A DNA stretch of 64,000 nucleotides from an uncultured Flavobacteriaceae bacterium (GTDB lineage: Bacteria; Bacteroidota; Bacteroidia; Flavobacteriales; Flavobacteriaceae), in the NCBI GenBank assembly GCA_947494565.1, contig CANLVG010000005.1, positions 124,001-188,000 on the forward strand, written 5' to 3'. The position numbers and the translations under genes were made by a program. This document shows, piece by piece, positions 43,989 to 45,257 of this stretch. Below the pieces are notes generated by a model. The model searched no databases and had not been told where the DNA came from. It saw nothing but the letters and a program-made list of their open reading frames with translations. The stretch's first letter is position 1. Every line of letters starts with the position of its first letter.

Positions 43989-44065
43989 GGCCCCGTGGCG
44001 CAACTGAATAGCGCATCAGATTTCGGCTCTGAGGGTTGCAGGTTTGAATCCTGCCGGGGTCACCA
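43989..44065 (+). tRNA. tRNA-Arg, anticodon TCG
   Basis: A full cloverleaf of 77 nt with encoded CCA. Acceptor GGCCCCG pairs with CGGGGTC (one G-U), D stem GCGC/GCGC, anticodon stem TCAGA/TCTGA with loop TTTCGGC giving anticodon TCG (reads CGA/CGN), T stem GCAGG/CCTGC. Two near-invariant positions differ: the D loop AACTGAATA has A at position 19, and the T loop TTTGAAT has T at position 56, which could form a compensating A19-U56 pair. It marks the left border of the prophage-like region. Confidence 0.95.
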
Positions 44066-44078
44066 GTGTTTCTTTAAC

Positions 44079-44114
44079 AAGCGTCTGACAATCAACATGT
44101 TAGACGCTTTTTTT
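44079..44114 (+). terminator. Terminator after tRNA-Arg
   Basis: AAGCGTCTGACA (44079-44090) pairs with TGTTAGACGCTT (44098-44109) with one G-U wobble; the loop is ATCAACA (44091-44097) and a run of seven T follows (44108-44114). It lies 13 nt after the tRNA CCA. Confidence 0.92.
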
Positions 44115-44305
44115 GTGCAAATCCGAATCGATTTGTCCGAAATGTTCCCGATTTTATATCTACTATTACATATGTAATCACATATAAACATAACAAATGT
44201 ATGATGTTCCGTTTGTGCCGGCATCATTTTAACTTTCCCAAGGCCCTGATACTGGGCGAATACAATCTATTGTGATATTATAATGATGTAAAACACAAAA
44301 TTAAG
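44115..44305. other. Gene-free stretch after tRNA-Arg
   Basis: No coding region is supported here. It holds a 14-bp perfect palindrome ATTACATATGTAAT (44165-44178), a small GCCC/GGGC hairpin (44243-44257) and A/T-rich sequence. The palindrome could be a regulator site or part of an attachment region; there is no proof. Confidence 0.5.
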
Positions 44306-44337
44306 TTGTGTAATTAGAACTTTATGTTGTAGTTTTG
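44306..44337 (+). promoter_or_regulatory. Promoter of the candidate small RNA
   Basis: TTG (44306-44308) and TAGTTTTG (44330-44337) are spaced by 21 bp, the same as the queA promoter. Transcription would start near 44344, exactly at the 5' hairpin of the candidate RNA. Confidence 0.6.
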
Positions 44338-44343
44338 GGTCGT

Positions 44344-44445
44344 TGTTATTCCGAGTAACATGAAAGAACTTAGAAGCTAGTCTAATTTAGTCTTCATAAA
44401 CGAAACCCTTTTTTACTACTCGGAATAGTAATTAAGGGTTTTTTG
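44344..44445 (+). ncRNA. Candidate small RNA with complementary 5' and terminator loops
   Basis: A 5' hairpin TGTTA/TAACA (44344-44348, 44356-44360) presents the 7-nt loop TTCCGAG. A middle hairpin is built on ATGAAAGA and TCTTCAT. A terminator follows: AAACCCTT (44403-44410) with AAGGGTTT (44434-44441), an inner TTACTA/TAGTAA stem (44413-44418, 44426-44431), loop CTCGGAA (44419-44425) and six T. The two heptaloops are exact reverse complements, so they can kiss, or pair over 11 bp (44347-44357 with 44417-44427) in an alternative fold that would open the terminator's inner stem. With a matching promoter this looks like a real RNA. It is not identified; a 6S-like RNA is one possibility. Confidence 0.6.
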
Positions 44446-44488
44446 TTACCCTGAATATTTAAAGGGTGTTTTATAAGTCTATTGATCA

Positions 44489-44713
44489 CGGTTGGAGCTC
44501 CCTTAGTGAAATGTGGTACAGCAGGTGAACGGAAACCACAGCGCCAATGCGAAATGAGGATGGCGCCGTTCAAAGCACGGAACGCGGATTAAGTCTCAAA
44601 CCTATTTTAACCCCGTTAAAGAATAGGACCTTGTATCTCCGGGTGTTTACACTGAACAGAAGATCAAAGGTATATGCAAGCCCCTAGGGTTTGCTATACC
44701 CTGAAAGCAACCG
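44489..44713 (+). ncRNA. Candidate structured RNA, multibranched, in the prophage left edge
   Basis: No open frame of note. CGGTTG (44489-44494) and CAACCG (44708-44713) can close a region with several local helices: TGTGGT/ACCACA (44512-44517, 44535-44540), GCGCCA/TGGCGC (44541-44546, 44561-44566), a hairpin around CGTTC/GAACG (44567-44584), CCTATT.. with a bulged partner ..AATAGG (44601-44627, 3-nt loop), and a strong hairpin GGTATA...TATACC (44669-44700). It ends 50 bp before the first prophage gene and could be an independent RNA or the leader of that operon. It does not match tmRNA, RNase P or SRP RNA by eye. Confidence 0.5.
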
Positions 44714-44762
44714 AGCGATTATCTAAACAGTAAGATTGAAGAAAGAATACTAAGAACCTAAA

Positions 44763-45257
44763 ATGAAGAAACAAATCCCTGACTTTCTGTCTCATTTACC
44801 CGTTTACCGTGGATACCCCGTTCCTTACTTCGTTCCTAAGGACAATAACGGTATTTTTCAGTTCAAGTTCGCATCGGGTGAAAAAATGATGACATGCCAT
44901 AAATACAAAAAGTGCTGTGTCTGTGGCAAGAATCTCAAAAAGGGGCTTAATTATTTTATTTCCGGGCCTTTGGGATTATCCAATCAATCCGATTCCCATA
45001 CACCTATGTATCTTAAATGCGCAAAATACTCTCTTAATCTATGCCCTCATCTTTTTTTCGAGAAGACCAAAAGAACCACCAATGAAGAAGACTCGGAGCC
45101 ATGGCAAATTACTATAAAGCCAAAGCAATTTTATTTGGTGTTGGCAAAGAAATACAAATTGATCACAACCCATAATTCGATGATTATTAAATACAGTAAC
45201 CATAGGGTTGTCCAAGAATACAGTTATAAGAACGGAGAATTACATGAAAAACTATGA
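44763..45257 (+). CDS. Phage zinc-binding protein of the RGYPVP/CxxC family
   Basis: A 164-residue protein with YRGYPVPYF at residues 15-23, a CxxC pair at C51/C54 (CCVCGK), then ISGPLGLSN and a second cysteine pair C86 and C94 in KCAKYSLNLCPHL. This order (R-G-Y/F-P-V-P-W-F, CWVCG, IGPM-N, ECA-Y---CPF) is that of a small zinc-binding family often found in actinobacterial genomes and phages, with no known function. A C-terminal extension (about 105-164) is not typical. It is the first gene of the left prophage operon and overlaps the next gene by 4 bp. Confidence 0.65.
   Translation: MKKQIPDFLSHLPVYRGYPVPYFVPKDNNGIFQFKFASGEKMMTCHKYKKCCVCGKNLKKGLNYFISGPLGLSNQSDSHTPMYLKCAKYSLNLCPHLFFEKTKRTTNEEDSEPWQITIKPKQFYLVLAKKYKLITTHNSMIIKYSNHRVVQEYSYKNGELHEKL

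Follow-up and report, generated by a model that had tools for sequence, protein, structure and literature searches.

A small RNA candidate with complementary 5′ and terminator hairpin loops near attL of a flavobacterial prophage

The window, by which we mean the whole 64,000-nucleotide stretch analysed here, contains a tRNA-Arg gene into which a prophage is integrated (Table 1). The attL core lies in the 3′ end of the gene and occurs again as attR at L039:15062–15079, and the prophage measures 75,034 bp with both cores counted. A third copy of the core, 17 bp long, is located ~ 163 bp further (L039:15226–15242) and was perhaps left by a previous integration. The RNA candidate described below begins ~ 280 bp inward from the attL core and thus at the prophage end opposite the tyrosine integrase, which adjoins attR; in the excised circle it would adjoin attP. 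The original prediction had a tRNA gene on one side of the locus and a prophage operon on the other; the locus lies inside the prophage, next to attL. The first ORF downstream showed weak matches (25–28% identity) to proteins in four Rhizobium phage records and matched neither Pfam nor PHROG at E ≤ 0.001. As a separate observation, the tRNA-Arg gene here encodes CCA, whereas the tRNA ends in 9 of 12 loci from the genus (L006–L017) do not; the remaining three gave no text match.

Genes for a terminase large subunit, a portal, virion proteins, RecT, and AntA are found in the prophage. Its terminase shares 63% identity with the terminases of Cellulophaga phages phi18:3, phi46:3, phi13:2, and phi19:3, and phi18:3, phi46:3, and phi19:3 are assigned to Pachyviridae in their records. 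In the three Cellulophaga phages compared, an SbcC-like protein is 51% and a hydrolase 63–64% identical; RecT had no match in the same three at E ≤ 1e-4. The closest terminases (67 and 66%) are on two short viral contigs without the left end, and a Wenyingzhuangia genome carries a terminase of 51% identity. Judged by its terminase, early genes, att repeats, and integrase, the element is a Pachyviridae-like temperate phage, a likeness that stops short of formal taxonomy. Pistol ribozymes (RF02679, 46.5 bits against a cut-off of 34.5) were seen on the minus strand of phi46:3 (L144:19461–19528) and of phi19:3 (L146:20369–20436); none scored above the cut-off in phi18:3, in the rest of the phi46:3 and phi19:3 records, or in this prophage.

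Table 1. Features at the attL end of the prophage (positions in the window).
Feature	Position	Strand	Basis
tRNA-Arg (tcg), integration site; attL core in 3′ end	43989–44065	+	ARAGORN, Rfam
attL core GAATCCTGCCGGGGTCAC, 18 bp	44046–44063	+	Core repeat
Promoter-like TTG-N21-TAGTTTTG with disfavoured G at −10	44306–44337	+	Sequence; consensus from PMC6847099
5′ hairpin, near-palindrome TGTTATTCCGAGTAACA	44344–44360	+	Sequence, folding
Central hairpin (predicted), GAAGCUAG-UCUAAU-UUAGUCUUC	44373–44395	+	Folding
Terminator hairpin with 2 × 2 internal loop	44403–44444, including T run 44439–44444	+	Sequence, folding
TGTTACCCTGAATA at the end of the T run	44444–44457	+	Complements the 5′ strand 44347–44360 at 12 of 14 positions
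First downstream prophage ORF, 164 aa	44763–45257	+	ORF list, protein searches

The 5′ hairpin reads TGTTA-TTCCGAG-TAACA. In the terminator hairpin (44403–44441), the outer stem pairs 44403–44410 with 44434–44441, and the upper stem and loop read TTACTA-CTCGGAA-TAGTAA (44413–44431). An RNA transcribed from ~ 44342–44343 to an intrinsic terminator near 44444 would measure ~ 102 nt and form three hairpins. It is plausible to read the locus as a small RNA that ends in an intrinsic terminator, a reading supported by the correct order of promoter box, hairpins, terminator, and T run; against it stand the lack of a homologue in our searches, the G at −10, and a 5′ loop that is predicted to be partly closed.

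The putative promoter was compared with what is described for Flavobacterium johnsoniae. According to PMC6847099, the Bacteroidetes sigma-A −7 box TAHHTTTG lies 4 or 5 nt upstream of the start, a −33 motif is much less evident in F. johnsoniae promoters, and the 241 probable promoters mapped in that species hardly ever have G at −10 or −9. We infer from the 6S-Flavo gene of the window's organism and from its relatives that it uses promoters of the same kind. Measured against the TAHHTTTG box, TAGTTTTG (44330–44337) keeps the six nearly invariant letters and has G at −10; the published box-to-start distance of 4 or 5 nt would put the start at 44342 or 44343. The TTG (44306–44308), the N21 spacing, and the box named in the original prediction are all present, but its description as a good promoter is too strong because of this G. 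The window contains 12 matches to TTG-N19–23-TAnnTTTG, compared with 6.8 (sd 2.4) for its Markov copies, and therefore one such box proves little.

The central observation concerns the two 7-nt loops, TTCCGAG (44349–44355) and CTCGGAA (44419–44425), which are, as had been claimed, exact reverse complements. With the flanking TA, the match extends to 11 nt (TATTCCGAGTA/TACTCGGAATA). We asked how unusual this is by scanning the plus strand of 1,324,000 bases (the window with the 60 kb that follow beyond it, plus 1.2 Mb of this genome) and found five complementary 7-nt loop pairs including the candidate, or ~ 0.2 per 64 kb; in Markov copies of the window, such pairs within 150 nt occurred at 0.02 per 64 kb. 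When loops of 6 to 9 nt were allowed, 12 complementary pairs were recovered in these bases, and a T run followed only one of the 12, the candidate. We also counted 671 terminator-like hairpins on both strands of the 1.32 Mb, a count in which one terminator may appear more than once, and sought a complement up to 150 nt upstream of each: the candidate had the longest (11 nt), followed by one of 9 and four of 8 nt. Resampling of just the 61 nt 5′ of the terminator gave a complement of at least 11 nt once in 100,000 trials.

It is nevertheless quite possible, though short of an even chance, that the loop match arose by chance or as a local duplication by-product of a near-palindromic 11-mer, and that the locus is an ordinary terminated transcript or a mere terminator whose loop has no joint role with the 5′ loop. 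The real genome yields such loop pairs at the rate given above, and exact 11-nt inverted repeats spaced 41–120 nt are common in themselves (1.4 per 64 kb; 26 in 1.2 Mb). The near-palindromic core TCSGA is present in both copies, and our searches found no relatives. The rank among the 671 hairpins and the resampling frequency, which applies per RNA, speak against chance. For a single RNA this arrangement is unusual, but only moderately so once account is taken of its having been picked by a reader. As an aside, TTCCGAG occurs 17 times in the window, two of these being the two loops, against 8.3 expected, a count reached in none of 100 shuffles; we suspect codon usage as the source of the excess.

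Folding predictions were made for the candidate and for a readthrough RNA. The strand 44344–44460 was more stable than 199 of 200 shuffles (z = −3.47). The terminator is predicted to present an open loop (unpaired probabilities 0.92 to 0.99) on a firm upper stem (pairing probabilities 0.91 to 1.0). The 5′ hairpin is predicted to be less accessible: its best fold has a 7-bp stem and a CCG triloop (−2.1 kcal/mol), with U-G and U-A pairs closing the loop, whereas the 5-bp stem with a 7-nt loop reaches only −0.1 kcal/mol. Unpaired probabilities were 0.05 and 0.04 for the outer two loop positions, 0.44 and 0.43 for the next two, and 0.98 for the middle three. The stems of 5 and 6 bp given in the original prediction can both be read in the sequence, but the 7-nt loop on the 5′ side is predicted to be partly closed. 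Taken alone, the 7-nt and 11-nt duplexes have predicted energies of −9.0 and −14.3 kcal/mol; a loop–loop kiss is a pseudoknot and lies outside the scoring of the folding programs used. A homodimer is predicted at −61.8 kcal/mol against 2 × −24.9 kcal/mol for the monomers, and would form through the 5′ near-palindrome, not through the terminator loop.

The same calculations bear on the proposal that the locus is a switch or attenuator. As an attenuator, the 5′ strand would control readthrough towards the prophage genes from 44763 by pairing either with the terminator apex over 11 bp or with TGTTACCCTGAATA at 12 of 14 positions. One strand does have three mutually exclusive partners, and in the readthrough RNA the alternative helix (−27.9 kcal/mol) beats the fold in which both hairpins are enforced (−25.1 kcal/mol), though not the unconstrained best fold (−29.8 kcal/mol). 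Pairing of TGTTACCCTGAATA with the 5′ strand is used in the best fold of a readthrough RNA. In the terminated RNA, however, the 11-bp helix has a probability of 0.0 and costs 3.9 kcal/mol (−21.0 against −24.9 kcal/mol for the best fold), and it omits the lower terminator stem beside the T run; for these reasons we do not favour an attenuator. The 5′ hairpin would also be made first, inspection revealed no leader peptide, ligand site, or sensor, and Rfam gave no match above cut-off at the locus. We consider control of this kind improbable.

The repeats could instead act as DNA, with near-palindromes near attP bound by a phage repressor, an integrase, or an excision protein and the RNA hairpins incidental. 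In favour, the predicted start coincides with TGTTATTCCGAGTAACA, a near-perfect dyad of 17 bp; the centre of a second dyad lies 70 bp further on, and attP is close by. The distribution of the dyad argues against such a site: the window has one match at up to 3 mismatches against 0.6 expected, the second hairpin not being among the matches, in the whole genome the pattern occurs at 49 places and its reversed form at 38, and visual inspection upstream of the HTH_3 repressor gene showed nothing similar. A role at the DNA level therefore seems unlikely to us.

Relatives of the RNA candidate were sought in genomes of the family and order, in phages, and in viral contigs, and no homologue was found in these searches; therefore nothing shows selection. 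The covariance model R1, made by entering one sequence twice, matched at E ≤ 0.01 in 3 other genomes of 397 from the family and 2 others of 395 from the order, two overlapping sets, at four places in all. By eye, a terminator-like hairpin ends all four, and two of them overlap tRNA genes (L033, L035). When R1 was applied to the records or genomes to which four related loci belong, it gave L122 at E = 0.096 and L123 at E = 0.144. A complementary loop pair (loops of 5 to 9 nt) was absent from all six R1 matches examined, that is, the four and these two. On 263,587 bases comprising the three Cellulophaga phages, L058, and L121, R1 returned 10 matches at E ≤ 10, the best (E = 0.043) an AT-rich terminator, and a plus-strand scan of the same bases for complementary pairs with loops of 6 to 9 nt found none.

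Searches at the DNA level gave only short matches: a 697-bp query against the 397 family genomes recovered scraps of 29 to 45 bp in six other genomes, and when 14 genomes from the genus were searched, two of the 13 others had scraps, 22 and 27 bp long. Among 50,697 phage records, blastn matched 26 at E ≤ 1, of which the best 20 are short stretches (E = 0.7), and an exact pattern search of viral contigs yielded no homologue. Protein searches with RecT and the terminase did reach relatives. Those with the neighbouring genes found nothing in viral contigs or in 396 other family genomes, and a search of genome contigs with the first ORF (44763–45257) likewise found nothing. Distant homologues can be missed by these searches because large searches filter more strictly and because the model derives from one sequence. 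We also considered a host RNA conserved 3′ of the tRNA and rejected it, as blastn of 44066–44470 against the 12 genus loci L006–L017 found no more at E ≤ 1 than two scraps, 13 and 14 bp long.

Comparison with known families gave no assignment. Only the tRNA in the window scored above cut-off in Rfam 15; the best weak match at the locus was SpF51_sRNA, with 26 bits against a cut-off of 50. 6S-Flavo (RF01685), which had been suggested for comparison, resembles the candidate in length (~ 100 nt; 108 model positions), but the candidate has no RF01685 match, and the one match in the genome is on another contig (G000:C16:31988–32097, 105.7 bits). Literature searches for this loop arrangement and for C4 antisense RNA turned up nothing recognised as the same, and one search on Pachyviridae and noncoding RNA returned no paper.

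Some well-known RNAs invite comparison. In the kissing complex of ColE1 RNA I and RNA II, fully complementary 7-nt hairpin loops meet; there, however, they belong to two antisense RNAs of one locus, whereas the candidate has both loops in one RNA. The pRNA of phi29 is a phage RNA encoded near a genome end whose two mutually complementary loops can join molecules; it differs as part of the packaging motor of another phage type and has no Rfam sequence link to the candidate. Both comparisons are offered as analogies only. In RsaOG (RsaI) of Staphylococcus aureus, a pseudoknot is reportedly formed by hairpin loops. Like the candidate, RsaOG is a small RNA (149 nt), and its pseudoknot is described as predicted in PMC5826253; it differs in that its expression was shown, whereas the candidate is a prediction from sequence for which our searches found no homologue and no Rfam match. 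LhrC of Listeria monocytogenes shares with it a terminator loop and an upstream loop that function in base pairing, the terminator loop pairing with its target in trans; according to PMC4132741, however, one motif is shared by the two LhrC loops, which bind a target mRNA, whereas the candidate's loops complement each other.

Our preferred reading, to which we assign a probability of roughly 45%, is that the candidate is an orphan small RNA of the prophage, which a contact may stabilise or dimerise. The sequence anatomy and the place within the prophage are observed, whereas transcription, contact, and function are inferred. The open terminator loop would kiss the 5′ hairpin of the same molecule or of a second one, and the contact, if formed, would mainly stabilise or dimerise the RNA and would not switch the terminator. 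A bolder version, in which a phage RNA closes or multimerises through a perfect kiss of 5′ hairpin and terminator loop so that only the completed, terminated molecule assembles, either checking itself or forming rings like phi29 pRNA, strikes us as very unlikely. The candidate is of ordinary size, without known relatives, and has one unusual match. Its expression would mean that a prophage related to the phage family Pachyviridae makes a small RNA, and a terminator loop touching the 5′ end would link the shape finally taken by the RNA to its completion. Because it stands as one sequence with no known relative, its main use is as a cheap test case.

A further stretch was noticed between the terminator and the first ORF. 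Positions 44447–44765 comprise ~ 300 nt with several tidy hairpins and no contained ORF of at least 60 aa. We tried this stretch (319 nt) as a large structured RNA and rejected it, since 20 of 100 shuffles folded as well (z = −0.80). Its G+C content is 0.40–0.47 per 100 bases, compared with 0.30–0.31 just before it.
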